Assembly: GCA_963082975.1 (NCBI GenBank)
Contig: OY720345.1
Span: 29,892,611-29,956,610, forward strand
Direction: 5' to 3'
DNA: 64,000 nucleotides
Source: Labia minor
Lineage: Eukaryota; Arthropoda; Insecta; Dermaptera; Spongiphoridae
Made by a program: the position numbers and the translations under genes. The first letter of the stretch is position 1, and the number at the start of each line of letters is the position of its first letter. Positions 34,301 to 62,499 of this stretch are shown here, piece by piece. The notes under the pieces were generated by a model that was not told the DNA's origin, made no database searches, and saw nothing but the letters and a program-made list of their open reading frames with translations.

Positions 34301-35160
34301 AATATATACAGTGGTGCCTCATACAACGAACTTAATTCGTTCCAGGAGCAAGTTCGTTATGCGAAAAGTTCGTTATGTGGAACGCGTTTTCCCATAACAA
34401 TACATGTTAAAAAAAATAATTCGTTCTGTAGCATAAAATATGCTAAGATGACATAATATAAAGATAAAATTTTTGTTACTATTTTTATTTAGATACCTAT
34501 TTAGAAAAACATAATGAAATCTAAAAAACCACCCCCTGCTGGCTTTGAATTCTTCTTCATTATCTTGATTGTTGCTACTTCCAGGGACGTTTTTCTTTAG
34601 ATCGTCATAAATTCTCTTGGCTTTGTGACAGATAATATCTTGGGTTGTTACGTCACCTTTCACCTGCCTGTCCTTAATCCAAATCGCTAATAGCCTCTCC
34701 ATTTCCTAGAGGATTGAAGACTTATGTTTTTCGTGAAATAATTTTGATACTCCATTGGCTCCTTTGGCTGATTTGATTGCATCCTTATTTGTCAAAATGG
34801 TGTAAATCATAGGTTCTTAAACTTATGTACTCCACGGACCCCCACTTGAAAAAATTTTTTTTGACGGACCCCCATCACAACTTTAGGTACTTTACGTCAT
34901 TTTATTAATTAATTTCTGGCTTACGATCTCATAAGGACAAGGATATATGATGAATATTTCTAACAGTGATTGGTGAATAACGATTTTTTTGCATATTGTA
35001 GAACACATTTTATTAGAAATTATAATATTGAAGAAAGAAAATACAAACATTGTCATAGCAACAAATCTCACAAATTATAATGGGTACTTACATTAAATTC
35101 ATATAAATATTTTATAATTTTTTTCAGAAAATATTAAATAAGAAATATTTTAAAAAATAA

Positions 35161-35211
35161 CTGCATCTATCTCATTAAATATAACTTACATATTTAATGA
35201 GATGTATGCAG
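35161..35211 (-). other. stem-loop over transposase stop codon, copy A
   Basis: Two 22-nt arms (35161-35182 and 35190-35211) pair at 20 of 22 positions around a 7-nt loop. The gene's last codons and TAA lie in one arm. On the gene strand the loop is GTAAGTT. Same structure in copies B and C. Confidence 0.8.
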
Positions 35212-37053
35212 TTGTTTTCTTGAAACAAGAATCTCAATATCTGGCTTAATATTGGAAACTTTTAATCTAAGATCCGGCTCTACATTTAATTTGTTCCTAT
35301 ATTTAGACTTAATATAAAATAGTACCGAAAAAGCTTGTTCGCATAAATATGTTGTGCAGAATGGAATCAAGTGTTGAAGTGCTTTATTTGCAAGCGCAGG
35401 ATAATCTGACCTGAGAAGTAACCAAAAGTTGCTCAATTCAGTTTTGTTAAATTTTAGTTTATAAGTTGTATCACATGATAATTCCACGAGAATATCTTGT
35501 TCAGGTGCAGATAAATGTTTAGCATTTGTAATTTCCATATTAAATGGATCTCTGATCCAGTTATTGCAAGGATCAGGAGTAGAAAAATACTTCCTGAAGT
35601 TGCTTTTCAAAGTAATTAAATGTTCAACAAATAATTGACGCGTTTGATTAAGCAATTTTTCACTGGAGCTTTCTATGAAATCATTGAGAGTTGGAAAAGA
35701 CTCATATACACCGTTCTGGATGCGTTTCGACCACAAGTCGATTTTTTTAATCATTGCTTCTATTTTATCTTCAACTTTAAATATATTTACAACAGTACCT
35801 TGCAGGCTCAAATTAAGTTCGTTCAATTTTGTAAAAATATCAGTCAAGTAAGCCACCTTAGCTAACCAGATAAAATCATTGAAACATTCGGTCAGTTCAA
35901 AATGCGCATCTATTAAAAACAATCGTATTTCATCTCGAAGCTCAAAAAGGCGAATGAGTACTTTCCCGCGGGACAACCAACGTACATCTGTATGTAATAA
36001 TAAATGTGTATGTTGACTACCCATTTCCTCACACAAAATTTTAAAAACTCTGGAATTAAGTGGACGAGCCTTAATGAAATTGACAATTTTAACTACTTCG
36101 TCTAATGTTCTTTTCAAATCTGGTGACATATTTTTGGCTGCTAATGATTCTCTGTGAATGCAGCAATGATTCCAAACAACCTGAGGCGCAACATTTTTAA
36201 TAAGAGCAATCAATCCAGTTCTTGTACCTGACATTGCACGAGCACCATCAGTGCAAATTCCAACACATTTTGGCCACTCTATTTCATTTTCGGTTATAAA
36301 ATTATTCAAACTGTTAAATATGTCATTAGCTGTCGTTCGTGAAGGTAGTGAATCACAAAACAATACATCTTCTTGTATTTGATTTTCAAACTCATATCTA
36401 ATGAAAGCTAACAAATTGGCATTATTAGTGACATCAGTACTTTCATCCAATTGTAATGAGTAATAGTGACTTTTGCGCACTCTCGATATTAATTCTTCTT
36501 TTATATTACATGACATGTCTTCAATCCTATTCTTAACCGTATCATTTGATAATGAAATCAAATTTATATCGTTTGCTGCTTTAGTTCCTAACATTATATT
36601 TGTAATTACTTTTGTAGCAGGAAGAATTAATTGCTCTGCTATATTATGCGGCTTTCCTGCTTTAGCAATAAGTAGAGCTACTTCATATGATGCCATTACT
36701 GCTTTCTTACTCATACCACCAGATCCCGTCTTTACCATCAATTTCTGACTTGAATTAAGTTCTTCTTTTTTCATTTTAAAAAATTCGATAGACTTACTAA
36801 CATGCTCGCTGTGCTTTGTTTGTAAATGACGTCTGAGATTAGCAGGTTTCATACTTTCATTGGATAAACTTTCCTGACATAGAACGCAGACTGGTCTTTC
36901 CACATCATTGTTGCAAATATAAGTAAATCCAAATGATAAATAATCATCCGAATATTTTCTAGTTTTGCGTTTCTTGGTAGAGTTTGCTGTTGATGCCTCA
37001 TCATCTGATTCTTTCCGTTTCTGTGTTGAACCAGTTTGTAGCCAACGATCCAT
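35194..37053 (-). CDS. hAT transposase (ZBED5-like), copy A
   Basis: A 619-residue single-exon transposase that would cut and join the element's ends in the nucleus. Order of parts: basic KKRKTRK at 27-33 (possible nuclear signal); BED-type zinc finger with C56, C59, H76, H81; RNase H-like core with D203 in LQLDESTD and D269 in GICTDGARA, followed by NHCCIHRESL at 295-303; and the C-terminal hAT dimerisation region, LRSDYPALANKAL at 547-559 and TTYLCEQAFS with E572, the third catalytic acidic residue. There are no internal stops. The length suits ZBED5/SCAND3-like hAT proteins. The ATG is the first in frame after an upstream AT-rich stretch. Residue 95 is K here and I in copies B and C. It is classified by motif recognition only; a domesticated host protein is unlikely because the TIRs and duplications are intact. 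Confidence 0.92.
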   Translation of the reverse strand: MDRWLQTGSTQKRKESDDEASTANSTKKRKTRKYSDDYLSFGFTYICNNDVERPVCVLCQESLSNESMKPANLRRHLQTKHSEHVSKSIEFFKMKKEELNSSQKLMVKTGSGGMSKKAVMASYEVALLIAKAGKPHNIAEQLILPATKVITNIMLGTKAANDINLISLSNDTVKNRIEDMSCNIKEELISRVRKSHYYSLQLDESTDVTNNANLLAFIRYEFENQIQEDVLFCDSLPSRTTANDIFNSLNNFITENEIEWPKCVGICTDGARAMSGTRTGLIALIKNVAPQVVWNHCCIHRESLAAKNMSPDLKRTLDEVVKIVNFIKARPLNSRVFKILCEEMGSQHTHLLLHTDVRWLSRGKVLIRLFELRDEIRLFLIDAHFELTECFNDFIWLAKVAYLTDIFTKLNELNLSLQGTVVNIFKVEDKIEAMIKKIDLWSKRIQNGVYESFPTLNDFIESSSEKLLNQTRQLFVEHLITLKSNFRKYFSTPDPCNNWIRDPFNMEITNAKHLSAPEQDILVELSCDTTYKLKFNKTELSNFWLLLRSDYPALANKALQHLIPFCTTYLCEQAFSVLFYIKSKYRNKLNVEPDLRLKVSNIKPDIEILVSRKQLHTSH

Positions 37054-37282
37054 TTTATGGAGTAATTTATTAACATTGAACTACAATAATATAAATATAA
37101 TATAAATATAATATAAATATAACGAATTATTATTTACTAGCTATGTTTTAATATGATTTTAAATGAATGTTTTAATATCATTTTAAATGAATGTTTTAAA
37201 TCATTTTAATAAATGTTTTAAATCATTTTAAATAAATGATTTAATATCATTTTAAATGAATATTAATTTATATAATAAATAT

Positions 37283-37372
37283 ATTTCGTAATTTGATTCT
37301 AAAATATTATTAATTTCGTAATTTGATTCTAAAATATTATTAATTTCGTAATTTGATTCTAAAATATTATTA
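37283..37372. repeat. 30-bp unit repeated three times inside hAT copy A
   Basis: Three perfect copies of a 30-bp unit beginning ATTTCGTAATTTGATTC. It lies between the gene's start and the right TIR; also present in copies B (about 56180-56271) and C. Confidence 0.9.
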
Positions 37373-38535
37373 AAATAAATATTTTTTATTCATAAAACTA
37401 ACTTATACTTACTCTCAAAAACAGCCTTTCTGGGAAATTGCAAAATGTGTTTAGTGTTTTTATAAAATAATGATCATGCAAATTACACTAAAAATTAAAA
37501 AAAATTATTAGCTATAATAAACTATTATTAGCTATAATTTAATTATAATTAATTAAATTAATAAAAATAATTTAAAGATACAACTCGTTGAGAAATGAAC
37601 TTATAATTAACATTTGCTTTAAAACTGTTTAAAACCCCAGAGTGGACGCTGACAATTTGGGTTTTTCCGGGTAAGACTGTCCCCTCCCCTGGTTTTCCCC
37701 AATAACAAAGTGAAAGAAAATTCCCTTATATGCCTCCCCTTCCGAGCCCCTAAGAGGGGTTATTTTAAAGGAACAATCGAAAAATGATTTTAAATGAATG
37801 AATGGATGAAAATTCAAATTTTATATATAGTTTTTTATATATGTTTATTTATTCACAAAAAATTAATTGACATAATTATCAATTTAATAAAATAAAATAG
37901 TATTATTAATAGTATTAAATTATAGCCGTAATTCTCTAGGAGGATATAGTTAAACAATGAACTTTAAATATTTATATATGTATATATTTTTACGATGATT
38001 TTTTTCCGAGGACCGCGGACCCCCAGTAAAGGCTTCGCGGACCCCCAGGGGTCCGCGGACCACAGTTTAAGAACCACTGGTGTAAATAGTTGTCTTGCTG
38101 AGGCCAAACTCTTTGACGAGGTCATACTGTTTTACCCCAGATTCACTCATAATTATTTCCTGTTTTATTTCAACAGAAATCACCTTCCTGCTTTTTTTTA
38201 GAAGCCATGATATAAAAAAAATATTGAAATAATAATGATAATTGAATATGGTAATGAAGAACGATTGCCGCGATACTGTTTAAGTTAAGTGCAGTGACTA
38301 TAATGACTGCCTGCAGTGCCTGCGCAAGGGGATGCAATACAACGGCAGCGATCGTGGAAGCTCGGGCGAGTTCGTTGTGTGAAACGAAGTTCGTTGTATG
38401 AATCATGAAATTTAGTTCATTATGGTTCGTTGTGTGAAGCGTTCGCTGTGCGAGGCATCACTGTAATAAATATAATAATAAAAATGTACATATAAAATAT
38501 ATTAAGAAAAATTTGTAAATTAACAATTTACAAAA

Positions 38536-38606
38536 ATGAAAGTTTTCTTAGTGATAATAATGCTCATTGTATATATATCTATTGCAAAATTAAAATTAAT
38601 TAAAAA
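38536..38606 (+). repeat. dispersed repeat R5, first half
   Basis: Begins ATGAAAGTTTTCTTAGTGAT and runs to AATTAATTAAAAA, matching the first half of 39242-39400, 39508-39665 and 42672-42810. It stops where HINE2 copy d begins. Confidence 0.55.
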
Positions 38607-39241
38607 TCAGCTGGAGCGTCTCCACTCGACTATCTTACAATTGGAATTGGATTAAATAACATATATTATATCTAAATTTAATTTAATTAATTAAATTATA
38701 AATTAAAATCAATAAATATTTATTAAACCAGGCGTGTTTGGCTCTTTGTTGAAGGCACCAAGACACGTGCTGGCGCGTGATTTGCTGTGTTAAAAAATAA
38801 ATTCCGGTACTTCCAGCGATTCAATCAGCAATGTTAAAAGATTAATTCCGGTACTTTCAGCGAATCAATCAAGCTGAAATTCTATATATAGCAGTTTTAT
38901 ACAATTTAATCATGTGAAAAACTATCAAACATATATCTTTATTTTTAGGGACACTTTGAAGGAATAAAAATCAAAACGTGGTAAGTAATCACCCTCTTCC
39001 GGATGAGCTACATTTCTCAAAAGTTGATAGAAATAGATAGGAATCATGCCCTTATACCAAATTTCATGATTCTAGCTCAAACGTTTTTAAGTAATCTTGT
39101 CTACATACACATATACATACACACAGATATTTTTCTCAATCTTAGTGAAAATGACTCAGAGACCTTCAAAATATATAACAACATCAAAATCTCGACAACG
39201 AAAATTTTCATGATGGCAATAATATCTCTGGCGAGATAGTA
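38607..39241 (-). mobile_element. HINE2 copy d
   Basis: Reverse copy with hairpin GAGCG-TCTC-CACTC (one mismatch), GACTATCTTAC subterminal repeat (mutated) and GGCGAGATAGT at 39230-39240. A block around 'CCGGTACTTCCAGCGATTCA' is locally repeated (38813-38880). The CA/TA tract is short (about 39105-39123). Confidence 0.7.
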
Positions 39242-39400
39242 ATGAAAGAATTGTTATTGATAATAACGCTCGTTGTATATATATATCTATTGAAAAATTA
39301 AAATTAATTAAAAACTAGCCTTTGAAAGCCGAAACATAATTTAAACTTTTTATTTTTACTAAAACCAGTTCGTACAATTTTTTTTTTTTATTTCTCGTGC
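39242..39400 (+). repeat. dispersed repeat R5
   Basis: Consensus order: ATGAAAGA..TTGTT, GTGATAATAACGCTC, GTATATATAT, TATTGAAAAATTAAAATTAA, AACTAGCCTTTGAAAGC, ACTTTTTATTT, CCAGT. No terminal inverted repeats found; class unknown. Starts exactly at the end of HINE2 copy d. Confidence 0.55.
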
Positions 39401-39474
39401 AAAAGGTCTGCTTTACAATTTACAATATTATCAATTTAAACCTGTAGATGTTTTCAAAAATTATAATTTTAAAA

Positions 39475-39510
39475 AACAATACCTCGCTTACTATCGTCGG
39501 TCGGTAAAAA
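39475..39510 (-). mobile_element. HINE1 5'-end fragment
   Basis: AACAATACCTCGCTTACTAT followed by CGTCGGTCGGTAAAA, only the terminal 35 bp of HINE1. An R5 copy follows immediately. Confidence 0.6.
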
Positions 39511-39665
39511 TGAAAGATTGGTTAGTGATAATAACCTTCATGTAGATTATATGTATCTAATGAAAAATCAAATTAATTAAAAACTAGACTTTGAAAAGCT
39601 GAACTTTAATTGAAACTTTTTATTTGTCCTTTTTCACGAGATACACATTTCACAAAATTATAATT
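39508..39665 (+). repeat. dispersed repeat R5
   Basis: ATGAAAGATTGGTTAGTGAT through ACTAGACTTTGAAAAGCTGA; diverged copy of 39242-39400. Confidence 0.55.
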
Positions 39666-39956
39666 TTTGAAAACATCTAAAGGTTAAAATTGATAAATTT
39701 GTGATAACTAGTAAATATATTATTTACAAATGTTACTATCGTAAATATGTTAATATTTAAGCGAACGCCATCTATGAGGCACTACAATATGAATATAAAA
39801 TATGAACCAGCTGGTCAGAGCGCCTTCGGCGCTCTTCACACCTGGACGGGTGCTCCGCCCCCTGTACCCCCGAGTGGTACATAGTATTTGGTTAAAAGTA
39901 GTAAAAGGTTTTCATCCATTTTCTTTCAATCAGTATATTACATAAAACATTCATAT

Positions 39957-40603
39957 CTTTTTACCGACCGACGATAGTAAGGGAGGTATTGTTTTCACAC
40001 CAAATTTCACATGTGGAGATTTTTACATATCTCCACGAATCATGCATTTTCTAAACAGAAAAAAGTATTTTTAGCATGATGTCTGTCCGTCTGTCCGTCC
40101 GCCCGTCTGTCCGTCCGTATAGATGTGTACAGCCTGAACGGCTCAACCGATTTTGATGAAATTTGGTATATTTACTTAATGCATCAGTGGGATGAATTGA
40201 TCAACTTTTGGTGCAATTCCGGAAACCGGAAGTGGTAGTATTAGCGATCGACGATAGGAAGGAAAGGGTTATTTTCACACCAAAGGAGATTTTTTTATAT
40301 ATCACCACGAATCATGCATTTTGTATTGGTTTTATCCTCGAAAAAAATCATATTTATTAGTTTTTTCTTGATTTAAAATTATATGATGTCATCCAGCCAT
40401 TCATGACGTCACAGCCTGGTCTTGCATATATATTATAAATAAAATAAAATTAAAAATGTTTATATTTATTATTTATGTATCCATATCTGTTTTTTATTAC
40501 ATTAATAGATATATGAAAATTATTTGAAATTGTTTCTGTAGCTGGAAATTAATTTATTTCAAACCGTCGGTCGGTTCGGACCTGGCCACAGGTCAACTTA
40601 TTG
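39957..40603 (+). mobile_element. HINE1 copy 7, nested in Helitron
   Basis: Complete forward copy: TTTTACCGACCGACGATAG at the 5' end, (GTCC/GTCT)n at about 40082-40118, CCGTCGGTCGGT near 40565, hairpin ACCTGGCCACAGGT, and CAACTTATT. The surrounding Helitron sequence is uninterrupted in the related copies at 6920-7000 and 42130-42190. Confidence 0.8.
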
Positions 40604-40682
40604 TGTTCTTATTTAAAATATATTTTAATTTAATCAGTAAATTAATTATATATATTATTATTGTATATGTTATATCTATCTA

Positions 40683-41090
40683 TTTATATGACTCAAAGAT
40701 ACTCGAAAGTTCTTGGCCACATTTCTCCAAATGTCCCTATCCTGAGCCCTTGTCCCATCTCTCTTAAGTCCCTTCCTATGCGTCCATGGTCTTGATTCCC
40801 TTTGATAATAATTTTGATGAGATAAGCCTCTTTACTGCATGATAACAGGCGTTTCCCGATTTCAACCTCGATTTAAATTCTTCTCAAATATTATTATCCT
40901 TCGTGATTACATTCAATTTTTCTACATATTCAAATTTTACATTTTCTATATTAAGATTTTGTATGTTAATACCGTTCCTCTTTGTCACTAAATATTTTTT
41001 CTTATCACTATTAATTTCAAACCTCCATTAATTTTTCCTCGCTATCTGTAATTGCAATTGCCGAATCTCTTATAATATTTAAGACGTCTG
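40683..41090 (-). pseudogene. LINE ORF2 thumb-region and 3' tail remnant
   Basis: The tail signature (CGAAAGTTCTTGGCC, CATTTCTCCAAATGTCCC) is at 40693-40745. On the minus strand from about 41010 to 40790 the sequence reads GFEINSDKKKYLV, FEYVEKLNVI and LKSGNACYHAVKRLISSKLL, the 'G..IN..KTK...FEYV..F.YLG...R...GN.CY..L...L.S' part after the polymerase active site. The middle of the ORF (YGCEAWS to the tail) is missing, so the copy has an internal deletion. Confidence 0.65.
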
Positions 41091-41091
41091 C

Positions 41092-41343
41092 TTAGCCTAA
41101 CTTTTCAATTTTTTTGTTTAATTGCATTTCGAGTGATTTTTTCCCAATTTGTGTAATCACATACTCACAACATGCAACATATAATTGGCCGTGGGAAAAA
41201 CATGGGGATTGCAAATGAATTCCGCAGCACTTGAGTGTCTGGCCCTGAGCTTGGAACATGGTCAAATCGGCGGTCAAAGTTGAAAATTCCCCATATATTA
41301 TATAACTACTGTAATTAGTATTATTATAATGTAAAATTATAAA
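41092..41343 (-). pseudogene. Helitron Rep/helicase C-terminal remnant
   Basis: The minus strand reads TMFQAQGQTLKCCGIHLQSP, then CFSHGQLYVACCEYV. The string 'Q.AQGQTL....L....CFSHGQLYVA.SRV' is diagnostic of the last helicase motifs of the Pif1-like domain in Helitron transposases, enzymes that move the element as a rolling circle. Only this end is left: the Rep domain and earlier helicase motifs are absent, SRV is mutated to CEY, and the frame closes shortly after. It lies upstream of, and in the same orientation as, the Helitron 3' end at 39812. Confidence 0.75.
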
Positions 41344-41589
41344 GAAAAAATGTTTAGATATTATTGTAGACATTTTCATTCTGTAAATTAAATAATTTTA
41401 TTTCATTTAAACAAATATCTATTTTTATTTTCATTCAAAGAATATGTATATTTGTTTATGTTAGGAAAACATCAAAAAAGGGAATTTACAGATTAAATTA
41501 AAATATATTAAAAATAAGAACACAAAATTCAAGATTATATGAATAAATAATTTTAAATAATTGATCTCATAATTGGATTTTCATTTTCA

Positions 41590-41760
41590 AGTATGTATAA
41601 GATATTATTGGGTGGATTCAAAATGTATGAAGGGACACACATAATAATAATAATATATAATTAATTTACTGATTAAATTAAAAAATATTTAAAGTAAGAA
41701 CACAAAAACAAAGAAATGTTTTATCTAATATACTGATTGAATATTTAGTATATAATATTA
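41590..41760 (+). mobile_element. Helitron-related fragment
   Basis: Shares TTGGGTGGATTCAAAATGTA, GAAGGGACACA, TTAATTTACTGATTAAATTA and TTTTATCTAATATACTGATT with 42060-42235 and with the 3' region at 6900-7000. It lacks the hairpin end. Confidence 0.5.
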
Positions 41761-42004
41761 CAATTACAATTTTTTTACTCTCTACTGACTGTTCATTTCA
41801 TAACTGAAAATAGTGTCGAATAGAAATAGACGATATTACTTGAATAAATCTTATAATGGTAGCTAAAATTGTTTGTTTGATTATTGAGGACCCCGGATCC
41901 ATTCATTTTAATCAGATTGATGCAATGATGCAACATTTAATAATTGTAATAAATAATTAAAGAAATGTATATCAATATTTTTTAATTCAAACTCAATAAT
42001 AATG

Positions 42005-42235
42005 AATTATTTTTTTTTAACTTATGTGCCGAGCCGAGCCTCGGGGTCCCGGTACTAAAATATTATAATGGGTAGAATTACAATATATGAAGGGACACAT
42101 AACATTTACAATATAAATATATATTTAATTTACTGATTAAATTAAAATGTATTAAAAGTAAGAACACAAAACAAATAAATGTTTTATCTAATATACTGAA
42201 CAGCTTATTAGTATAGTATAATATATAATATTTTT
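42005..42235 (+). mobile_element. Helitron-related fragment
   Basis: Contains GCCGAGCCTCGGGGTCCCGG (a GC-rich palindromic patch) and then the same block order as 41590-41760. No terminal hairpin. Confidence 0.45.
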
Positions 42236-42328
42236 TATATTTACGCAGTATAATAAATTGATGATGTCATTTAATTCTACTATATATCGAATCGAATATA
42301 AAGATAAATCTTCTTCTAAACGTTGTGT

Positions 42329-42662
42329 GAAACAATTTCAAATAATTTAAATGTATATCTATTAATGAAATAAAAAAAATCAAATATATGAATATAATAT
42401 AAATATTTTTAATTTTATTTTAAGAATAGATATATATATATATATCACAGGCGGTGGTTGTGACGTCACATATATACATTTAAATTTAGAAGAAAAAAAC
42501 TAATAAAGATGTAGTTTTCCTGAGATGTGATCAATAAAACTCAATTTTTCTTTATAAATACTATCTCTGGTGTGAATTTCAAAAAAATCGTTAGAGCGGT
42601 TTTTGAGAACAAAGAAACAAACAAACAAACAAACAATTTTTACTCGTATAAGAAGATAAGAT
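42329..42662 (-). mobile_element. mosaic HINE1-like element
   Basis: The left part follows the HINE1 3' half (AACAATTTCAAATAATTT, ATATCTATTAATG, TTTTTAATTTTATTTTA, GTGACGTCAC, AAAAACTAATAAAGATG). The right part changes to a different 5' half with a (CAAA)n tract at about 42615-42640 and an end TTTTTACTCGTATAAGAAG. Neither the HINE1 hairpin nor its subterminal repeat is present. Confidence 0.5.
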
Positions 42663-42671
42663 ATAAAAAAA

Positions 42672-42810
42672 AATGAAATATTGATTAGTGATATTAACGC
42701 TCATTGTATATAATACGTATCTATTGAAAAATTAAAATTAATTAAAAACTAGGCTTTGAAAGCTGAATTTCAATTAAATCTTTTTATTTCTCCTAAACCC
42801 AGTACCTACA
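42672..42810 (+). repeat. dispersed repeat R5
   Basis: ATGAAATATTGATTAGTGAT through AACTAGGCTTTGAAAGCTGA; fourth copy. It again starts right at the end of a HINE-like element. Confidence 0.55.
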
Positions 42811-43800: not shown

Positions 43801-43803
43801 TTC

Positions 43804-44440
43804 TTTTTTACCGACCGACGATAGTAAGGGAGGTATTGTTTTCACACCAAATTTCACATGTGGAGATTTTTACATATCTCCACGAATCATGCATTTTCTT
43901 AACAGAAAAAAGTATTTTTAGCATGATGTCTGTCCGTCCGTCTGTCCGTCTGTCCGTATAGATTTGTACAGCCTGAACGGCTCAACGGATTTTGATGAAA
44001 TTTGGTATATTTACTTAATGCATCAGTGGGATGAATTGATCAACTTTTGGTGCAAATCCGGAAACCGGAAGTGGTAGTATTAGCGATCGACGATAGGAAG
44101 GGAAGGGTTATTTTCACACCAAATTTCACATGAGATTTTTTTATATATCACCACGAATCATGCACTTTGTATTGGTTTTATCCTCGAGAAAAATCATATT
44201 TATTAGTTTTTTCTTGATTTAAAATTATATGACGTTATCCAGCATATCCAGCTTGTTCTTGCATATATATTATAAATAAAATAAAATTAAAAATGTTTAT
44301 ATTTATTATTTATGTATCCATATCTGTTTTTTATTACATTAATAGATATATTAAAATTATTTGAAATTGTTTCTGTAGCTGGAAATTAATTTATTTCAAA
44401 CCGTCGGTCGGTTCGGACCTGGCCACATATCAACTTATTT
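43804..44440 (+). mobile_element. HINE1 copy 8
   Basis: Complete forward copy. The GTCY tract is short (43929-43955). The 3' subterminal repeat CCGTCGGTCGGT is intact at about 44401-44412; the hairpin is partly mutated (ACCTGGCCACATAT). Confidence 0.8.
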
Positions 44441-44894
44441 GTTTTAGCTCCAAAATAGCCTTAATTATATTTGAGATATTTTATTCTGTTAACATTTTTT
44501 TTTCACACAACAGATAATTTTTATAATTTTCGATTAGTATTGGTTTCGGCCTCCTGAAAAGTTAACTTTGTTATTTTTTTCTTGTTAAAAAAAATAGTAA
44601 TTTTAAATGAGGTCAGCAAGGACATCATATTCAAATTTGTCTACCGTTATATTTGATTTAAGTTAATATTGCATTAATCATTTTTTATATATTAATTAAA
44701 ATATTTTAAAATGTTTAGTTCGTTTTTAATTTAATTTCGAAATAAAATTAAAAATATTTATTTTAATAATAATTTAGACTAAAATTACGAAATATAGTTA
44801 TCATATCTCAATATATTTCTTGAATGAACAGAGCGGCTACTACCGACATATTCTTTTTTGTATTAATTTTTTTTATATTTAAATCTTTTTAAGT

Positions 44895-45106: not shown

Positions 45107-45114
45107 TTTTAAGT

Positions 45115-48938: not shown

Positions 48939-49480
48939 CCTATTCTGAGCTATAACCATCTAACTCCTACGCTGTCCCATCTCTCTCACGTTCCTTCCTA
49001 CATTGTCCGCCCTGTTCACAATTGGTCTTCCAAACGGACGTTTTCCAATCGAACTCCCCACCAATATATTTTTCCTCTCCCATTCTAGCCATGTGCCCTG
49101 CCGATCCCAGCCTTCTCGCTTTTATAACCCTAACTATATCTAGAGATGCATAGAGGTCATGCAATTCCTTGTTATGCAGTCTCCGCCATTCCCCGGTGTC
49201 CTCATCTTTCTTTGGCCCATAAATGCTGGAAAGAATCCTATTCTCAAATACTCTGAATCTATTCTCATCTCCCAGGGTTATAGACCATGCCTCCCACCCA
49301 TATAATACAATTAATAATTTAATAATTTTGATCCCCTTTGATAATAATTTCCAGATTGCAACCTCGAATTAAATTCTTTGCAAATATTATTCTCTCTGAT
49401 ACTAATTATTTTGTCTTATCACTATTAATTTCAAACCCCATCAATTTTCCTGCCTCGATTAAATTTTTTATGCTACTTTA
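48936..49480 (-). pseudogene. LINE ORF2 C-terminal part
   Basis: The minus strand reads YGWEAWSITLGDENRFRVFE, NRILSSIYGPKKDE, EWRRLHNKELHDLY, IVRVIKARRL and GHMARMGEE, followed by a degenerate 'WKTSVWKTN' tail. Same family as 28233-28650, with fewer changes in YASLDIVRVIK. From about 49310 to 49480 earlier RT sequence (INSDKT, NLIRGCN) continues with frameshifts. The 3' terminus is lost where the Helitron end abuts. Confidence 0.75.
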
Positions 49481-50745: not shown

Positions 50746-50749
50746 ATGA

Positions 50750-51880: not shown

Positions 51881-51884
51881 AAGT

Positions 51885-52457
51885 TAACGTTAACCTGTGT
51901 CCAGGCACAGAACCGACCGACGGTTTGAAATAAATTAATTTCCAGGTACAGAAACAATTTCAAATAATTTAATCTATTAATGCAATAAAAATCAAATATG
52001 GATATAACAAATATTTTTAATTTTATTTTATTTATAATATATAAGTAGGGCTGGGTGACGTCATATAATTTTAAATTAAGAAAAAACTAATGAAGATTAT
52101 TTTCCCGAGGATAAAACCAATACAAAGTGCATGATTCGTGGAGATATGTAAAAAATCTCTGAAATTTGGTGTGAAAATAACCCTTCCCTTCCTATCGTCG
52201 ATCGGTAATACTACCACTTCCGGTTTCCGGATTTGCACCAAAAGTTTATCAATTCATCATATTGATGTATTAAGTAAATATACCAAATTTCATCAAAATT
52301 CGTTGAGCCGTTCGGACGGACGGACGGACGGACAGACATCATGCTAAATATACTTTTTTCTGTTAAGAAAATGCATGATTCGTGGAGATATGTAAAAATC
52401 TCCACACGTGAAATTTGGTGTGAAAACAATACCTTCCTTACTATCGTCGGTCTTTAA
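51885..52457 (-). mobile_element. HINE1 copy 10
   Basis: Reverse copy; GAACCGACCGACGG is intact near 51909-51922, the hairpin is mutated (ACCTGTGTCCAGGC) and the 5' end reads CGTCGGTCTTTAAAA. The GGAC tract is about 52314-52333. Confidence 0.75.
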
Positions 52458-52459
52458 AA

Positions 52460-53675
52460 ACAATTTTTTAAAATTTTTTATTTTTTTTTTACTTTTTTAA
52501 GACTATATCTTGGTTATTTAAAGTTGACAATTTTTTTCAAATAAGAGATGAAATTTGAAAACTAAAATTATCTAAGTATCATTAAAATTTTCTATATTTG
52601 ATATTGTTTAGAAAATATGGCCATTTTAATTTTATGATATTATTTAATTGTTTATTTGCGAATGCATTTAAGGGAAATTATTGCCAGGTCGTTATAACAA
52701 GAATAGAATCTCAAATAAAAAATTTATTTAGGACCGGTTTTACCATCTGACCGGAATTTTGTTCACAAAACATATACATATGCACTTTTTTCGAATCAGA
52801 ATTAATTGAAACGTGAAGATCTGTGAAAAACGCATATTGGTAGTGAACCAGGATTACAATACCTACAATACTCACAACAAACTTAGAAATTTTTTTTTTC
52901 GAATAAAATGTAATAAAAATATGTGAAAAAGAAAAGTTTGGAGTGAATGAACAATTAAGTATTATTTGTAGATGATTAAAAACAATTTGGCATTTTTACA
53001 TTTATATAAATAGTCATTATACAAATCAATTTCAGTTAATTACATAAATGTGTTTTAATTTTTAAGTGGGTTGGATAATTTCTTAAATGTTTCTGCTTTA
53101 AGCTCTTTCGTGTCTATCTATCTTTCTCTCTCTCCCTTTCCCCTGTAATCTAAATTATTTATAAATGGATTAATAATTACAAAAAAAAAAAAAATCAAGC
53201 TTTCGCTTTTCCTGTCGATACATATAATTTGTATTCTTCATTAATTGATATTATTTCTGTATATTCAGTTTTAATTCAATTTTCATTATATCTTTAATTA
53301 AAACCCAAAAACAAAACAAACAAAAAATATAAAGACTTTAAAGATGAATTGAAAACATATAAATTAATAATTAAAAAAAAAAAAATTTAAAATCTAGCCG
53401 CCAGAATATCACTAAATTAAATATCAACTTAAAAAGGAATTATTAAGAAAATAATGCTTCTTTACAATTAAAAGGGATAGTTTATTGCTTAGTGATTGGT
53501 TTTACATTGAAGTAAATGAGAATGTGCACACTGAATTTAGTGTCTCAAGATGGATTCTGTCTTGACAATGGTTCGTTTTCCGTAACCGACAAACATTTTC
53601 TCGAAGGACTTGCAAAAGTTTAAAAATTTATTTAAAAAAAAAATTTAGTTATAACTTAATAATTGAACATTAAAT
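52460..53675. other. AT-rich spacer
   Basis: A patch at about 52740-52870 (GACCGGTTTTACCATCTGAC, CATATACATATGCAC) resembles HINE cores but lacks termini. No gene. Confidence 0.4.
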
Positions 53676-54036
53676 GTTTATAACATAGGTTCTTAAACTT
53701 ATGTACTCCACGGACCCCCACTTGAAAAAATTTTTTTTGACGGACCCCCATCACAACTTTAGGTACTTTACGTCATTTTATTAATTAATTTCTGGCTTAC
53801 GATCTCATAAGGACAAGGATATATGATGAATATTTCTAACAGTGATTGGTGAATAACGATTTTTTTGCATATTGTAGAACACATTTTATTAGAAATTATA
53901 ATATTGAAGAAAGAAAATACAAACATTGTCATAGCAACAAATCTCACAAATTATAATGGGTACTTACATTAAATTCATATAAATATTTTATAATTTTTTT
54001 CAGAAAATATTAAATAAGAAATATTTTAAAAAATAA

Positions 54037-54087
54037 CTGCATCTATCTCATTAAATATAACTTACATATTTAATGAGATGTATGCAG
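54037..54087 (-). other. stem-loop over transposase stop codon, copy B
   Basis: The same 22-nt arms and GTAAGTT loop as at 35161-35211. Confidence 0.8.
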
Positions 54088-55929
54088 TTGTTTTCTTGAA
54101 ACAAGAATCTCAATATCTGGCTTAATATTGGAAACTTTTAATCTAAGATCCGGCTCTACATTTAATTTGTTTCTATATTTAGACTTAATATAAAATAGTA
54201 CCGAAAAAGCTTGTTCGCATAAATATGTTGTGCAGAATGGAATCAAGTGTTGAAGTGCTTTATTTGCAAGCGCAGGATAATCTGACCTGAGAAGTAACCA
54301 AAAGTTGCTCAATTCAGTTTTGTTAAATTTTAGTTTATAAGTTGTATCACATGATAATTCCACGAGAATATCTTGTTCAGGTGCAGATAAATGTTTAGCA
54401 TTTGTAATTTCCATATTAAATGGATCTCTGATCCAGTTATTGCAAGGATCAGGAGTAGAAAAATACTTCCTGAAGTTGCTTTTCAAAGTAATTAAATGTT
54501 CAACAAATAATTGACGCGTTTGATTAAGCAATTTTTCACTGGAGCTTTCTATGAAATCATTGAGAGTTGGAAAAGACTCATATACACCGTTCTGGATGCG
54601 TTTCGACCACAAGTCGATTTTTTTAATCATTGCTTCTATTTTATCTTCAACTTTAAATATATTTACAACAGTACCTTGCAGGCTCAAATTAAGTTCGTTC
54701 AATTTTGTAAAAATATCAGTCAAGTAAGCCACCTTAGCTAACCAGATAAAATCATTGAAACATTCGGTCAGTTCAAAATGCGCATCTATTAAAAACAATC
54801 GTATTTCATCTCGAAGCTCAAAAAGGCGAATGAGTACTTTCCCGCGGGACAACCAACGTACATCTGTATGTAATAATAAATGTGTATGTTGACTACCCAT
54901 TTCCTCACACAAAATTTTAAAAACTCTGGAATTAAGTGGACGAGCCTTAATGAAATTGACAATTTTAACTACTTCGTCTAATGTTCTTTTCAAATCTGGT
55001 GACATATTTTTGGCTGCTAATGATTCTCTGTGAATGCAGCAATGATTCCAAACAACCTGAGGCGCAACATTTTTAATAAGAGCAATCAATCCAGTTCTTG
55101 TACCTGACATTGCACGAGCACCATCAGTGCAAATTCCAACACATTTTGGCCACTCTATTTCATTTTCGGTTATAAAATTATTCAAACTGTTAAATATGTC
55201 ATTAGCTGTCGTTCGTGAAGGTAGTGAATCACAAAACAATACATCTTCTTGTATTTGATTTTCAAACTCATATCTAATGAAAGCTAACAAATTGGCATTA
55301 TTAGTGACATCAGTACTTTCATCCAATTGTAATGAGTAATAGTGACTTTTGCGCACTCTCGATATTAATTCTTCTTTTATATTACATGACATGTCTTCAA
55401 TCCTATTCTTAACCGTATCATTTGATAATGAAATCAAATTTATATCGTTTGCTGCTTTAGTTCCTAACATTATATTTGTAATTACTTTTGTAGCAGGAAG
55501 AATTAATTGCTCTGCTATATTATGCGGCTTTCCTGCTTTAGCAATAAGTAGAGCTACTTCATATGATGCCATTACTGCTTTCTTACTCATACCACCAGAT
55601 CCCGTCTTTACCATCAATTTCTGACTTGAATTAAGTTCTTCTTTTATCATTTTAAAAAATTCGATAGACTTACTAACATGCTCGCTGTGCTTTGTTTGTA
55701 AATGACGTCTGAGATTAGCAGGTTTCATACTTTCATTGGATAAACTTTCCTGACATAGAACGCAGACTGGTCTTTCCACATCATTGTTGCAAATATAAGT
55801 AAATCCAAATGATAAATAATCATCCGAATATTTTCTAGTTTTGCGTTTCTTGGTAGAGTTTGCTGTTGATGCCTCATCATCTGATTCTTTCCGTTTCTGT
55901 GTTGAACCAGTTTGTAGCCAACGATCCAT
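54070..55929 (-). CDS. hAT transposase (ZBED5-like), copy B
   Basis: 619 residues, uninterrupted, the same protein as at 35194-37053 except I at residue 95 (FFKMIKEEL). All key positions are kept: BED finger C56/C59/H76/H81, D203, D269, the HCCIH segment at 296-300, and E572. A silent difference from copy A is visible near 54171 (TTTCTAT against TTCCTAT). The 3' flank has a possible polyadenylation signal (TTTATT on the plus strand, 53885-53890). With intact ends, duplications and gene, this copy could be autonomous; expression is not shown by the sequence. Confidence 0.92.
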   Translation of the reverse strand: MDRWLQTGSTQKRKESDDEASTANSTKKRKTRKYSDDYLSFGFTYICNNDVERPVCVLCQESLSNESMKPANLRRHLQTKHSEHVSKSIEFFKMIKEELNSSQKLMVKTGSGGMSKKAVMASYEVALLIAKAGKPHNIAEQLILPATKVITNIMLGTKAANDINLISLSNDTVKNRIEDMSCNIKEELISRVRKSHYYSLQLDESTDVTNNANLLAFIRYEFENQIQEDVLFCDSLPSRTTANDIFNSLNNFITENEIEWPKCVGICTDGARAMSGTRTGLIALIKNVAPQVVWNHCCIHRESLAAKNMSPDLKRTLDEVVKIVNFIKARPLNSRVFKILCEEMGSQHTHLLLHTDVRWLSRGKVLIRLFELRDEIRLFLIDAHFELTECFNDFIWLAKVAYLTDIFTKLNELNLSLQGTVVNIFKVEDKIEAMIKKIDLWSKRIQNGVYESFPTLNDFIESSSEKLLNQTRQLFVEHLITLKSNFRKYFSTPDPCNNWIRDPFNMEITNAKHLSAPEQDILVELSCDTTYKLKFNKTELSNFWLLLRSDYPALANKALQHLIPFCTTYLCEQAFSVLFYIKSKYRNKLNVEPDLRLKVSNIKPDIEILVSRKQLHTSH

Positions 55930-56987
55930 TTTATGGAGTAATTTATTAACATTGAACTACAATAATATAAATATAATATAAATATAATATAAATATAACG
56001 AATTATTATTTACTAGCTATGTTTTAATATGATTTTAAATGAATGTTTTAATATCATTTTAAATGAATGTTTTAAATCATTTTAATAAATGTTTTAAATC
56101 ATTTTAATAAATGTTTTAAATCATTTTAAATAAATGATTTAATATCATTTTAAATGAATATTAATTTATATAATAAATATATTTCGTAATTTGATTCTAA
56201 AATATTATTAATTTCGTAATTTGATTCTAAAATATTATTAATTTCGTAATTTGATTCTAAAATATTATTAAAATAAATATTTTTTATTCATAAAACTAAC
56301 TTATACTTACTCTCAAAAACAGCCTTTCTGGGAAATTGCAAAATGTGTTTAGTGTTTTTATAAAATAATGATCATGCAAATTACACTAAAAATTAAAAAA
56401 AATTATTAGCTATAATAAACTATTATTAGCTATAATTTAATTATAATTAATTAAATTAATAAAAATAATTTAAAGATACAACTCGTTGAGAAATGAACTT
56501 ATAATTAACATTTGCTTTAAAACTGTTTAAAACCCCAGAGTGGACGCTGACAATTTGGGTTTTTCCGGGTAAGACTGTCCCCTCCCCTGGTTTTCCCCAA
56601 TAACAAAGTGAAAGAAAATTCCCTTATATGCCTCCCCTTCCGAGCCCCTAAGAGGGGTTATTTTAAAGGAACAATCGAAAAATGATTTTAAATGAATGAA
56701 TGGATGAAAATTCAAATTTTATATATAGTTTTTTATATATGTTTATTTATTCACAAAAAATTAATTGACATAATTATCAATTTAATAAAATAAAATAGTA
56801 TTATTAATAGTATTAAATTATAGCCGTAATTCTCTAGGAGGATATAGTTAAACAATGAACTTTAAATATTTATATATGTATATATTTTTACGATGATTTT
56901 TTTCCGAGGACCGCGGACCCCCAGTAAAGGCTTCGCGGACCCCCAGGGGTCCGCGGACCACAGTTTAAGAACCACTGGTTTATAATA

Positions 56988-57102
56988 TCAAGGATGAAGT
57001 GGGTGAACAATGTAGGAAGGGACGTGAGGGAGATGGGAGAGGGTAGGAATTGGATGGTTATAGCTTAGAAGTTTCGAGTTCCGTAGAGTCACAAAAAGAG
57101 AA
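56988..57102 (+). mobile_element. LINE 3' tail fragment
   Basis: CAAGGATGAAGTGGGTGAAC, AATGTAGGAAGGGACGTGAG and GGATGGTTATAGCTTAGA follow the plus-strand LINE tail order, ending GTTCCGTAGAGTCAC. Its 5' side coincides with the target duplication of hAT copy B. Confidence 0.6.
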
Positions 57103-57413
57103 ATGTTTATAATTATACAATATTTAATTTATTTTATAATTTATATAAAAATTAAGAATCAAATAAAATCAATAAAAATAAAATATAAAATTAAGAATCA
57201 AATAAAAAAAACATTTAAAAAAATTATCTAAATTTCCTTATTTATTGTTTTTGATTTTAAAAGTAAAAAAAAAAAAATATTTGTATTTAGTAATTTCCAA
57301 TACAATGTATAATGACAATTTTCTTTTTAAAGATAAGGTGGATAAATCAGGCAAAACAATAAATATTTTTTATAATTAAAATGATTTTTTTAAAATATAT
57401 TTTAAATATAAAT

Positions 57414-57992
57414 AAGCTGGAGTGTCTCCGCTCGACTATCCTACAATTTGCATTGGATTAAATAACATATATTATATTTAAATTAAATTGAATTAATTAA
57501 ATTATAATTAAAATTAGTAAATAATATTTATTAAACCAGCGCGTGTTTAGATCTTTTTTGATGGCACCACGTCACGTGCTGGCGCGTGATTTGCAGTGTT
57601 AAAAAATTAATTCCGGTACTTTCAGTGATTCAATCAAGCTGAAATTCTATATATAGCAGTTTTATACAATTTAATCATGTGGAAAAACTATCAAACAAAT
57701 ATCTTTAATTTTACGGAGGAAAAAAAATGTAAACATGGTAAGTAATCACCCTCTTCCGGATGAGCCACATTCCTCAAAAGTTGATAGAAAACTACGAATT
57801 ATGAATAATGCCCGTATACCAAATTTCATGATTCTAGCTCAAACCGTTTTTGCGTAATCTTGTCTACCTACACACATACACACTCACACACACAGATATT
57901 TTTTTCAACCTTAGTGAAAATGACTCAGGGACCTTCAAAATGTATAACAACATCAAAATTTCGACCTCGAAGATATCTGGCGAGATAGTAAA
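57414..57992 (-). mobile_element. HINE2 copy e
   Basis: Reverse copy with hairpin GAGTG-TCTC-CGCTC (one mismatch), GACTATCCTAC, a CA-rich tract at about 57868-57895, and GGCGAGATAGT at about 57979-57989. Confidence 0.7.
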
Positions 57993-58149
57993 AAAATATT
58001 GATTTATAAATAAATTTTCAAAATTATAATTTAAAAATTGAATTGAATGATATTAATAATACATTTAATATATTTATTCTAATAAAAGAAATGATAGAAA
58101 AAACTTAAACGAATGTCACTTAATCAAGAACAAACAGTGACAAACAATT

Positions 58150-58500
58150 GTAGTTGAGAATGATTATAAATACAAAAGGGTTATCAGGGAGGATGGGACA
58201 GTAAGGGAAACAATTTGTCACTCAGAAGAAGAAGAAGTGAAGAAATGAATCAACCCTTCTGGAGTTGGACACGGACACGTTGTGTGGCTTCACTGAAGAC
58301 GAAGGGAATGAGAGGAGAAAGAGAAAGAGAGATGGAAGAGGTTAAAGGGTTGGTTGGTTTGCTATACTGTCTGTGTGCGAATTTTCGATGGTCTACCGGT
58401 GACAGTGACCGATTGCAAGAAATTGGTGGGCTGCGAATCGTAAAAAAAAAATACATGAACATGAAATACCTTTTCGCCTCTTTTTTTCTATTATAGCAAA
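58150..58500. other. GC-elevated non-repeated island
   Basis: Unique sequence lying between hAT copies B and C. Open frames on both strands (93 codons plus; 141 codons minus, the latter crossing an (AT)n tract) show no family signature. (AT)n at about 58546-58573. Confidence 0.25.
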
Positions 58501-58540
58501 TAAGCTTTGGAAAAATATATTTTCTAGATAAAGTATTATG

Positions 58541-58576
<36 letters not shown>

Positions 58577-60127
58577 AAAAAAATGCGATTTTTCTTGAAT
58601 ATGACAACTAACTAGCGAGATTTCAAGATTAGAAAGGTTGTTTTTTTTCAATCCCTTTAAAAATGATTTCATCAAGAGTGTATTAAGAGAAAAACTCAGC
58701 GAGAAGAATTTATTTTATTTTTTTCATTCTCTTCCTCCCTTTTTACAATTTAGTATTCATCAGTAATCTGATCAAACTAGAGGTGATAATACTTAATAAA
58801 ATTAAATAATATAAACAAAAATAAAAAACAAAAAAGATAATTCATGAGAAAATTATTTTATAAATATATGTAAATCAATTGCAATGAAATATTATAATAT
58901 ATACATCCATAAACATTTAATTAAAACTAGTTAATTTGTAAATAAACATTAATTTTCACATATTTTGAAAAAAATAATTTAATAATTTGTATTTAAGGAA
59001 CATGAAGTTATTAAAAACTAAGAATACACATACACGGTCTGTCTCTAAAGTAAAGGGACAAGTACTATAACTTTGCTCAGGTAAGCGACATCTGCACTCT
59101 AAAAAATGTACTAAACGTGTAACCAAATATTGTATCATTCTCTAAAGCAGTGGTTCTTAAACTGTGGTCCGCGGACCCCTGGGGGTCCGCGAAGCCTTTA
59201 CTGGGGGTCCGCGGTCCTCGGAAAAAAATCATCGTAAAAATATATACATATATAAATATTTAAAGTTCATTGTTTAACTATATCCTCCTAGAGAATTACG
59301 GCTATAATTTAATACTATTAATAATACTATTTTATTTTATTAAATTGATAATTATGTCAATTAATTTTTTGTGAATAAATAAACATATATAAAAAACTAT
59401 ATATAAAATTTGAATTTTCATCCATTCATTCATTTAAAATCATTTTTCGATTGTTCCTTTAAAATAACCCCTCTTAGGGGCTCGGAAGGGGAGGCATATA
59501 AGGGAATTTTCTTTCACTTTGTTATTGGGGAAAACCAGGGGAGGGGACAGTCTTACCCGGAAAAACCCAAATTGTCAGCGTCCACTCTGGGGTTTTAAAC
59601 AGTTTTAAAGCAAATGTTAATTATAAGTTCATTTCTCAACGAGTTGTATCTTTAAATTATTTTTATTAATTTAATTAATTATAATTAAATTATAGCTAAT
59701 AATAGTTTATTATAGCTAATAATTTTTTTTAATTTTTAGTGTAATTTGCATGATCATTATTTTATAAAAACACTAAACACATTTTGCAATTTCCCAGAAA
59801 GGCTGTTTTTGAGAGTAAGTATAAGTTAGTTTTATGAATAAAAAATATTTATTTTAATAATATTTTAGAATCAAATTACGAAATTAATAATATTTTAGAA
59901 TCAAATTACGAAATTAATAATATTTTAGAATCAAATTACGAAATATATTTATTATATAAATTAATATTCATTTAAAATGATATTAAATCATTTATTTAAA
60001 ATGATTTAAAACATTTATTAAAATGATTTAAAACATTTATTAAAATGATTTAAAACATTCATTTAAAATGATATTAAAACATTCATTTAAAATCATATTA
60101 AAACATAGCTAGTAAATAATAATTCGT

Positions 60128-60162
60128 TATATTTATATTATATTTATATTATATTTATATTA
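60128..60162 (+). promoter_or_regulatory. candidate core promoter of hAT copy C gene
   Basis: Three tandem TATTTATATTA-type TATA-like units end about 35 bp before the ATG at 60196. The same array precedes the gene in copies A and B. Function is inferred from position only. Confidence 0.35.
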
Positions 60163-60195
60163 TTGTAGTTCAATGTTAATAAATTACTCCATAAA

Positions 60196-62055
60196 ATGGA
60201 TCGTTGGCTACAAACTGGTTCAACACAGAAACGGAAAGAATCAGATGATGAGGCATCAACAGCAAACTCTACCAAGAAACGCAAAACTAGAAAATATTCG
60301 GATGATTATTTATCATTTGGATTTACTTATATTTGCAACAATGATGTGGAAAGACCAGTCTGCGTTCTATGTCAGGAAAGTTTATCCAATGAAAGTATGA
60401 AACCTGCTAATCTCAGACGTCATTTACAAACAAAGCACAGCGAGCATGTTAGTAAGTCTATCGAATTTTTTAAAATGATAAAAGAAGAACTTAATTCAAG
60501 TCAGAAATTGATGGTAAAGACGGGATCTGGTGGTATGAGTAAGAAAGCAGTAATGGCATCATATGAAGTAGCTCTACTTATTGCTAAAGCAGGAAAGCCG
60601 CATAATATAGCAGAGCAATTAATTCTTCCTGCTACAAAAGTAATTACAAATATAATGTTAGGAACTAAAGCAGCAAACGATATAAATTTGATTTCATTAT
60701 CAAATGATACGGTTAAGAATAGGATTGAAGACATGTCATGTAATATAAAAGAAGAATTAATATCGAGAGTGCGCAAAAGTCACTATTACTCATTACAATT
60801 GGATGAAAGTACTGATGTCACTAATAATGCCAATTTGTTAGCTTTCATTAGATATGAGTTTGAAAATCAAATACAAGAAGATGTATTGTTTTGTGATTCA
60901 CTACCTTCACGAACGACAGCTAATGACATATTTAACAGTTTGAATAATTTTATAACCGAAAATGAAATAGAGTGGCCAAAATGTGTTGGAATTTGCACTG
61001 ATGGTGCTCGTGCAATGTCAGGTACAAGAACTGGATTGATTGCTCTTATTAAAAATGTTGCGCCTCAGGTTGTTTGGAATCATTGCTGCATTCACAGAGA
61101 ATCATTAGCAGCCAAAAATATGTCACCAGATTTGAAAAGAACATTAGACGAAGTAGTTAAAATTGTCAATTTCATTAAGGCTCGTCCACTTAATTCCAGA
61201 GTTTTTAAAATTTTGTGTGAGGAAATGGGTAGTCAACATACACATTTATTATTACATACAGATGTACGTTGGTTGTCCCGCGGGAAAGTACTCATTCGCC
61301 TTTTTGAGCTTCGAGATGAAATACGATTGTTTTTAATAGATGCGCATTTTGAACTGACCGAATGTTTCAATGATTTTATCTGGTTAGCTAAGGTGGCTTA
61401 CTTGACTGATATTTTTACAAAATTGAACGAACTTAATTTGAGCCTGCAAGGTACTGTTGTAAATATATTTAAAGTTGAAGATAAAATAGAAGCAATGATT
61501 AAAAAAATCGACTTGTGGTCGAAACGCATCCAGAACGGTGTATATGAGTCTTTTCCAACTCTCAATGATTTCATAGAAAGCTCCAGTGAAAAATTGCTTA
61601 ATCAAACGCGTCAATTATTTGTTGAACATTTAATTACTTTGAAAAGCAACTTCAGGAAGTATTTTTCTACTCCTGATCCTTGCAATAACTGGATCAGAGA
61701 TCCATTTAATATGGAAATTACAAATGCTAAACATTTATCTGCACCTGAACAAGATATTCTCGTGGAATTATCATGTGATACAACTTATAAACTAAAATTT
61801 AACAAAACTGAATTGAGCAACTTTTGGTTACTTCTCAGGTCAGATTATCCTGCGCTTGCAAATAAAGCACTTCAACACTTGATTCCATTCTGCACAACAT
61901 ATTTATGCGAACAAGCTTTTTCGGTACTATTTTATATTAAGTCTAAATATAGAAACAAATTAAATGTAGAGCCGGATCTTAGATTAAAAGTTTCCAATAT
62001 TAAGCCAGATATTGAGATTCTTGTTTCAAGAAAACAACTGCATACATCTCATTAA
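60196..62055 (+). CDS. hAT transposase (ZBED5-like), copy C
   Basis: 619 residues, identical in sequence to copy B (I at residue 95). Visible parts: MDRWLQTGST start; KKRKTRK (27-33); BED finger CVLC...HLQTKH (56-81); LQLDESTD with D203; GICTDGARAMS with D269; long alpha-helical insertion region (about 305-540) with HTDVRWLSRGK at 354-364; and LCEQAFS with E572, then the YRNKLN...DLRL block (585-597). A nearer ATG at 60173 belongs to another frame, so 60196 is the start. A candidate polyadenylation signal AATAAA lies at 62235-62240. This copy and copy B are the best candidates for active enzyme sources. Confidence 0.92.
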   Translation: MDRWLQTGSTQKRKESDDEASTANSTKKRKTRKYSDDYLSFGFTYICNNDVERPVCVLCQESLSNESMKPANLRRHLQTKHSEHVSKSIEFFKMIKEELNSSQKLMVKTGSGGMSKKAVMASYEVALLIAKAGKPHNIAEQLILPATKVITNIMLGTKAANDINLISLSNDTVKNRIEDMSCNIKEELISRVRKSHYYSLQLDESTDVTNNANLLAFIRYEFENQIQEDVLFCDSLPSRTTANDIFNSLNNFITENEIEWPKCVGICTDGARAMSGTRTGLIALIKNVAPQVVWNHCCIHRESLAAKNMSPDLKRTLDEVVKIVNFIKARPLNSRVFKILCEEMGSQHTHLLLHTDVRWLSRGKVLIRLFELRDEIRLFLIDAHFELTECFNDFIWLAKVAYLTDIFTKLNELNLSLQGTVVNIFKVEDKIEAMIKKIDLWSKRIQNGVYESFPTLNDFIESSSEKLLNQTRQLFVEHLITLKSNFRKYFSTPDPCNNWIRDPFNMEITNAKHLSAPEQDILVELSCDTTYKLKFNKTELSNFWLLLRSDYPALANKALQHLIPFCTTYLCEQAFSVLFYIKSKYRNKLNVEPDLRLKVSNIKPDIEILVSRKQLHTSH

Positions 62056-62088
62056 ATATGTAAGTTATATTTAATGAGATAGATGCAG
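62038..62088 (+). other. stem-loop over transposase stop codon, copy C
   Basis: Arms 62038-62059 and 62067-62088 pair at 20 of 22 positions; the TAA is at 62053-62055 and the loop 62060-62066 is GTAAGTT, which contains a consensus 5' splice-site sequence. Confidence 0.8.
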
Positions 62089-62499
62089 TTATTTTTTAAA
62101 ATATTTCTTATTTAATATTTTCTGAAAAAAATTATAAAATATTTATATGAATTTAATGTAAGTACCCATTATAATTTGTGAGATTTGTTGCTATGACAAT
62201 GTTTGTATTTTCTTTCTTCAATATTATAATTTCTAATAAAATGTGTTCTACAATATGCAAAAAAATCGTTATTCACCAATCACTGTTAGAAATATTCATC
62301 ATATATCCTTGTCCTTATGAGATCGTAAGCCAGAAATTAATTAATAAAATGACGTAAAGTACCTAAAGTTGTGATGGGGGTCCGTCAAAAAAAATTTTTT
62401 CAAGTGGGGGTCCGTGGAGTACATAAGTTTAAGAACCTATGCTCTAAAGATTCACTTTTCTCGTGTTTATAAGTTTTTTACAATTCCCAAAGGAGGCAC

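Follow-up and report, generated by a model that had tools for sequence, protein, structure and literature searches.

Three nearly indistinguishable elements with the features of hAT transposons lie within a span of 28 kb inside the window, the stretch of 64,000 nucleotides that was analysed here (C2:29892611-29956610 of an assembly of 604 Mb in 71 contigs). This raises the questions of whether they belong to a family that has moved very recently, whether that family is still moving, and whether the three copies reached their positions by short jumps. The best explanation, to which a probability of about 0.9 is assigned, is that they are copies of an autonomous Buster-type hAT cut-and-paste transposon that is amid a genome-wide burst of very recent date or has only just passed through it.

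Structure of the three copies

The three copies and their target site duplications (TSDs) are located as follows.

34808..38079, minus strand: copy A, complete element of 3272 bp, K95 haplotype lacking the additional 22-bp unit
53684..56977, minus strand: copy B, complete element of 3294 bp, haplotype with I95 and the 22-bp unit
59148..62441, plus strand (inverted): copy C, complete element of 3294 bp, exactly equal to B
34800..34807 and, second copy, 38080-38087: TSD of A, GTGTAAAT
53676..53683 and, second copy, 56978-56985: TSD of B, GTTTATAA
59140..59147 and, second copy, 62442-62449: TSD of C, CTCTAAAG

Base-by-base alignment bears out the sequence-only reading of this DNA, which had described three complete near-identical hAT elements within 28 kb, with A set apart from two equal copies, B and C, by K95I, one silent base and one 22-bp unit. 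A and B differ by 2 substitutions in 3272 aligned bases (K95I and the silent change) and by one 22-bp gap, and B and C, which lie 2.2 kb apart in inverted orientation, are identical across 3294 bp. The exact 8-bp duplications that had been reported are also present, both members being identical within each of the three pairs, as is the open gene of 619 residues in each copy, and the encoded proteins differ at residue 95 only. The terminal inverted repeats (TIRs) had been called matching; the two ends are indeed alike but imperfect, with 14/16 of the outer 16 bases matching.

The following features lie inside the elements.

56019..56159: minisatellite with a 24-bp unit upstream of the transposase in B, including the 22-bp unit absent from A
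56181-56271: 30-bp array in B, after the 24-bp minisatellite
54030..54094 in B, 62031-62095 in C, 35154-35218 in A: imperfect inverted repeat across the transposase stop codon
53712..53749: subterminal GGACCCCC repeats in the left end of B (element positions 29 and 59), candidate BED-finger sites

Two further GGACCCCC repeats are found at element positions 3232 and 3254. The inverted repeat over the stop codon would fold into a strong RNA hairpin, which could mark the transcript end. By eye, positions 59148-60195 of copy C contain a GTAAGT donor on the upstream side of the minisatellites and, immediately ahead of the start codon, a TTGTAG acceptor, a pair that suggests an intron in the 5' UTR; this putative intron is followed, again as judged by eye, by an ATG that is out of frame and overlaps the transposase gene.

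The transposase

The open reading frames are positioned as follows.

35194..37053, minus strand: transposase of A, 619 aa (K95)
54070..55929, minus strand: transposase of B, 619 aa (I95)
60196..62055, plus strand: transposase of C, 619 aa (I95)

The protein matches the hAT dimerisation domain PF05699 weakly (residues 536-590, E 0.00086, 19.5 bits, below the curated cut-off of 21.4), and similarly weak matches to the BED finger PF02892 (residues 55-82, E 0.0074, 16.7 bits, below the curated cut-off of 20.6) and to a zinc finger of the Spin-doc type (E 0.0028, below the curated cut-off) are observed. The NCBIfam search returned matches only far below the cut-off, and no relative of the transposase was found among viral contigs, phages and prokaryote genomes. 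The motifs LDESTD at 202, TDGARAM at 268, CCIH at 297, DVRW at 356 and CEQAFS at 571 occur in this order and are taken by us to be the catalytic landmarks of hAT transposases, which would make D203, D269 and E572 the candidate catalytic residues. The N-terminus is likewise presumed to resemble that of ZBED5/Buster1.

A BED finger is common to the Buster and Ac families and is therefore no discriminator between them (PMC3606216). The BED finger of Hermes binds subterminal repeats, the sequence of which is other than GGACCCCC (PMC10368747), and by analogy with Hermes the BED-type finger here may bind the GGACCCCC repeats. In the proposed mechanism, the single-ORF transposase of 619 aa would bind the short TIRs and, via this finger, the subterminal repeats; its RNase-H-like core would then excise the element, with catalysis predicted from the motifs, and the element would enter TA-centred target sites of 8 bp. 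Its copies would multiply through refilling of the donor gap or through jumps made during replication.

Insertion sites and independence of the copies

Twenty-three complete copies were read, namely A, B, C, a copy D that sits approximately 85 kb upstream of A, L021-L023, L026-L032, the two copies of L034, L035-L040 and the inner copy of L033. Loci L024 and L025 correspond to B and C, and the outer L033 copy was omitted because its 5' end lies outside the fetched sequence. Perfect 8-bp TSDs flank 23/23 of these copies, all with TA at positions 4-5, and the 23 TSDs are all different; the TA frequency of the surrounding 264-kb region is 0.118. The features of hAT membership are thus 8-bp TSDs in every copy, short TIRs of 16 bp, and complete elements that range from 2742 to 3327 bp, a hAT-like size (hAT elements are described as 2.5-5 kb; PMC3942097). 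The gene is open for 619 codons in 16/23 copies and broken in 7/23: D carries a nonsense codon and a frameshift, and the protein of L035-L040 stops at 383 residues.

The joined flanks of 13 insertions were compared with the 264-kb region and the loci read, and empty sites with one TSD copy were obtained for two of the 13, D and L031, that of D being found in other copies of a 640-bp repeat. This comparison yielded no clean empty site for the remaining insertions tested; the mariner relative of C is not clean at the site. One copy (L033:519-3760, or C1:61851419-61854660) is nested within a near-identical copy and has its own TSD, ATTTAAAA.

These sites bear on the explanation that the copies are assembly or segmental duplicates and not independent insertions, which would account for the identity of B and C over 3294 bp, 2.2 kb apart and inverted. 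The flanks of the copies, those of B and C included, are unlike right outside the TSDs, which indicates three separate insertions, and each copy has a TSD of its own; an assembly duplicate was rejected on these two grounds. With 23 different TSDs among the 23 complete copies and clean empty sites for two, duplication in either form is very improbable.

Copy number across the genome

The size of the family was estimated from exact matches to an ORF tag (35 bases around codon 95, 32 of them fixed) and to the 36-base left end; the genome totals cover these two sequences. The ORF tag has 763 + 769 = 1,532 exact matches genome-wide and the left end 783 + 772 = 1,555, with 0 matches for the reversed-pattern control in both cases. 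Exact tags see undamaged sites only, so that older decayed copies and short derivatives lacking an exact left end are missed. In a protein search, the best 71 of 3,641 candidates were scored in full, and 71/71 of this selected set are full length without stops. A search of the genome at the DNA level, which passes over common words, gave no matches even for the copies of the window and is therefore uninformative about rarity. The count of genome copies that had been proposed as a check thus gives approximately 1,500 near-identical copies, a family far larger than the three first seen, and the claim of very recent transposition is strongly supported by the tags, the left ends and the intact proteins. 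If every tag-bearing copy were approximately 3.3 kb long, the family would occupy approximately 0.84% of the genome.

The pairing of the two tags was examined on C1 up to 40.24 Mb, where 100 tag sites and 97 of 100 left ends are present among the matches listed. Within this set, 93/100 tag sites have a left end, and 79/100 have it at the exact intact spacing of 1978 bp, which indicates that in most copies there the interval between codon 95 and the left end has kept its overall length. The tag sites without a left end number 7/100 and the left ends without a tag 4/97 among the same matches, and this stretch accordingly has few copies that combine an exact left end with an internal deletion. 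The near-equal genome totals agree with this pairing. The burst is therefore genome-wide, apparently with few deletion derivatives.

Age and lineages

Pairs among the 22 aligned copies differ by 0.086% on average and by 0.22% at most. Singleton substitutions number 10 in 70,824 bases, or 1.4e-4 per site (95% interval 0.7e-4 to 2.6e-4). The mutation rate of insects is near 3e-9 per site per generation, and this rate yields a tip age on the order of 50,000 generations, a value biased downward because L021-L032 were picked by best protein score, which partly selects for intactness and lowers the divergence.

Codon 95 divides the family: as read by eye, 97 of the 100 tag sites among the matches listed encode K here, 2 encode I and 1 encodes E. 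The I95 form has 12 exact-tag copies genome-wide, and all 12 were read. L021, L022, L023 and L026 are 2742 bp long, with an upstream region 552 bp shorter than that of B and an intact gene; L021, L023 and L026 are identical at distant sites, and L022 differs by two bases in its end. L035-L040 carry the 22-bp unit together with a common 5-bp deletion in the ORF that leaves 383 aa, and they occupy six sites with six different TSDs on C1 and C6. Two sets of identical copies at distant places are found among them (L035, L037 and L038; L036, L039 and L040). Since copies with the same broken gene lie at different sites, their transposase was most simply supplied in trans by other copies, and movement in trans is the simplest account of this group.

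Whether the burst continues is a separate matter. The family may recently have been silenced, for example by small RNAs, in which case the identity of the copies would reflect only the short time elapsed; private substitutions that are low but non-zero and the already broken copies (D and L035-L040) are in keeping with this. The identical copies at distant places, including L021, L023 and L026, and the B/C pair point instead to very late jumps, which makes an ended burst somewhat doubtful. As judged from the copies themselves, the hAT family is probably active at present and its burst possibly continuing.

Clustering of copies and possible local jumps

The sequence-only reading had considered local hopping likely because three copies lie within 28 kb. 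As proof of local hopping this proximity was rejected: uniform placement of 1,532 copies gives 3.7 +/- 2.1 triples within 28 kb per genome by chance, and A comes from another lineage. In an earlier gap test on the best-scored 65 copies of C1, 6 gaps were shorter than 20 kb where 1.09 were expected (p 0.00065), an excess that weakened in the fuller set; for the 100 C1 sites among the matches listed, 11 gaps below 20 kb are observed against 4.8 expected (p 0.006), and the remaining seven of the eight distances tested show no significant excess. The Poisson probability of four copies in 264 kb is 0.005, but the window itself was chosen for its copies. Similarly, three gaps below 60 kb arose in 0/200,000 simulations of 12 randomly placed I95 copies, but 6/12 of these copies represent one young sublineage.

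The expected number of chance triples, a gap excess that is clear only below 20 kb and the different haplotype of A all favor an origin of the three-copy cluster by chance or at a target hotspot, and not by local hopping. Against such an origin, I95, the 22-bp unit and an intact gene occur together in no exact-tag copies of the genome other than B and C, which are separated by 2.2 kb; moreover, the two copies of L034, at a distance of 4.9 kb from each other, do not differ in sequence and have in common a base that none of the other 20 aligned copies shows. Chance or a hotspot is the less likely explanation of the clustering. The part of the claim that stands is the one that concerns B and C, for which the haplotype evidence supports a local jump. 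By far the simplest account, on sequence grounds, is that B and C would be a sister pair from one short-range jump, and A would be a member of another lineage nearby, the position of which chance alone can explain. Local hopping of hAT elements is known for Ac and Tol2 (PMC2753552).

Relationship to known Buster elements

The TSD consensus nnnTAnnn marks Buster elements (PMC3517528, PMC3499496). The earlier assignment to the Buster branch, based on the BED finger, the hAT core and TA-centred duplications, is supported by the TA-centred TSDs in 23/23 copies and by the TIR likeness to published Buster1, and thus has TSDs and TIRs as its basis. The TIR of Buster1 from Schmidtea, Rhodnius and Mengenilla, CAGGGCTTCTTAAAC(T), is closely like CAGTGGTTCTTAAACT and CATAGGTTCTTAAACT here, and subterminal repeats of the GGGTC/GCG type are present in Buster1 as TGGGTCGCG, compared with GGGGGTCCGCG here (PMC4298943). 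In the same source, Buster1 elements are 2.2-2.5 kb long and number 3 to 17 autonomous copies per genome, next to as many as 270 short non-autonomous ones, whereas the elements here are 2.7-3.3 kb long, with approximately 1,500 tag-bearing copies and apparently few deletion derivatives, an opposite composition of copies.

TcBuster of Tribolium, a Buster-group hAT with 8-bp nnnTAnnn duplications as here, is similar by description only; its activity has been shown by experiment, whereas the present element is known from its sequence (PMC3499496). Hermes of Musca is approximately 3 kb long and has a transposase of 612 aa and subterminal repeats, similar to the element here, as well as a BED finger, to which the candidate finger here would correspond (PMC10368747). 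Hermes has been assigned to the Ac family (PMC3606216). The transposase of the present element has no match by sequence to any solved structure. The domesticated ZBED5/Buster1 genes are of Buster-branch ancestry, with a BED finger and a hAT core, as is proposed for the transposase here, but they are immobile host genes, whereas the gene here sits within mobile copies (PMC3606216). In the literature consulted, mostly listings and abstracts, no paper attributable to this hAT family was found, which is not to claim that the family is absent from print. It represents a new family of a known kind, a Buster-type hAT, unusual in its scale, its freshness and the apparent scarcity of deletion derivatives.

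Autonomous hAT families are usually left with a small number of intact copies and numerous short relics, as in Buster1 (PMC4298943). A tentative reading, held at slightly less than even confidence, is that a Buster invasion is seen here near its start: one founder, probably from another species, would have given rise to approximately 1,500 near-identical copies before a swarm of short derivatives formed, with sublineages bearing E, K or I at residue 95, and the first trans-mobilised broken lineage (383 aa) could be an early repressor. The 383-aa product would keep the finger and, presumably, two of the three catalytic acids. Approximately 1,500 near-unmutated copies, mostly of intact length where measured, form a natural record of invasion, which could show the pace at which copies become broken, the time at which deletion derivatives and trans-mobilised copies arise, the reach of jumps and the onset of host silencing. 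The naturally intact transposase with its well-defined ends is also a candidate laboratory tool for gene transfer.

Sequences surrounding the elements

The following features lie outside the elements.

4832-5496, 9544-10150, 22896-23507, 30380-31091, 39958-40602, 43805-44444, 51889-52460: copies of a repeat of approximately 640 bp
15373-15975, 17683-18260, 24214-24748, 38596-39252, 57402-57974, 63126-63790: copies of a repeat of approximately 600 bp
28323-28727 and 48967-49368, both minus strand: two related ORF fragments, by eye similar to the C-terminal regions of non-LTR retrotransposons
34373-34705, minus strand: fragment with a Tc5-type transposase DNA-binding domain, just outside A
62577-62993, plus strand: DDE_3 (mariner/Tc1-like) transposase fragment beside C

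No Pfam match was obtained for the two fragments at 28323-28727 and 48967-49368, and no Rfam match was obtained in the window at the gathering score. The statement that the surrounding repeats are all decayed was too strong, since positions 30562-31084 and 40080-40602 are 97.9% alike. The repeat of approximately 640 bp contains an internal partial duplication and a GTCC microsatellite and has many copies in the 264-kb region, approximately 78-98% alike, with D inside one of them. The second dispersed family, of approximately 600 bp, has copies that are approximately 73-88% alike. A sequence related to the flanks of C is present approximately 74 kb upstream.
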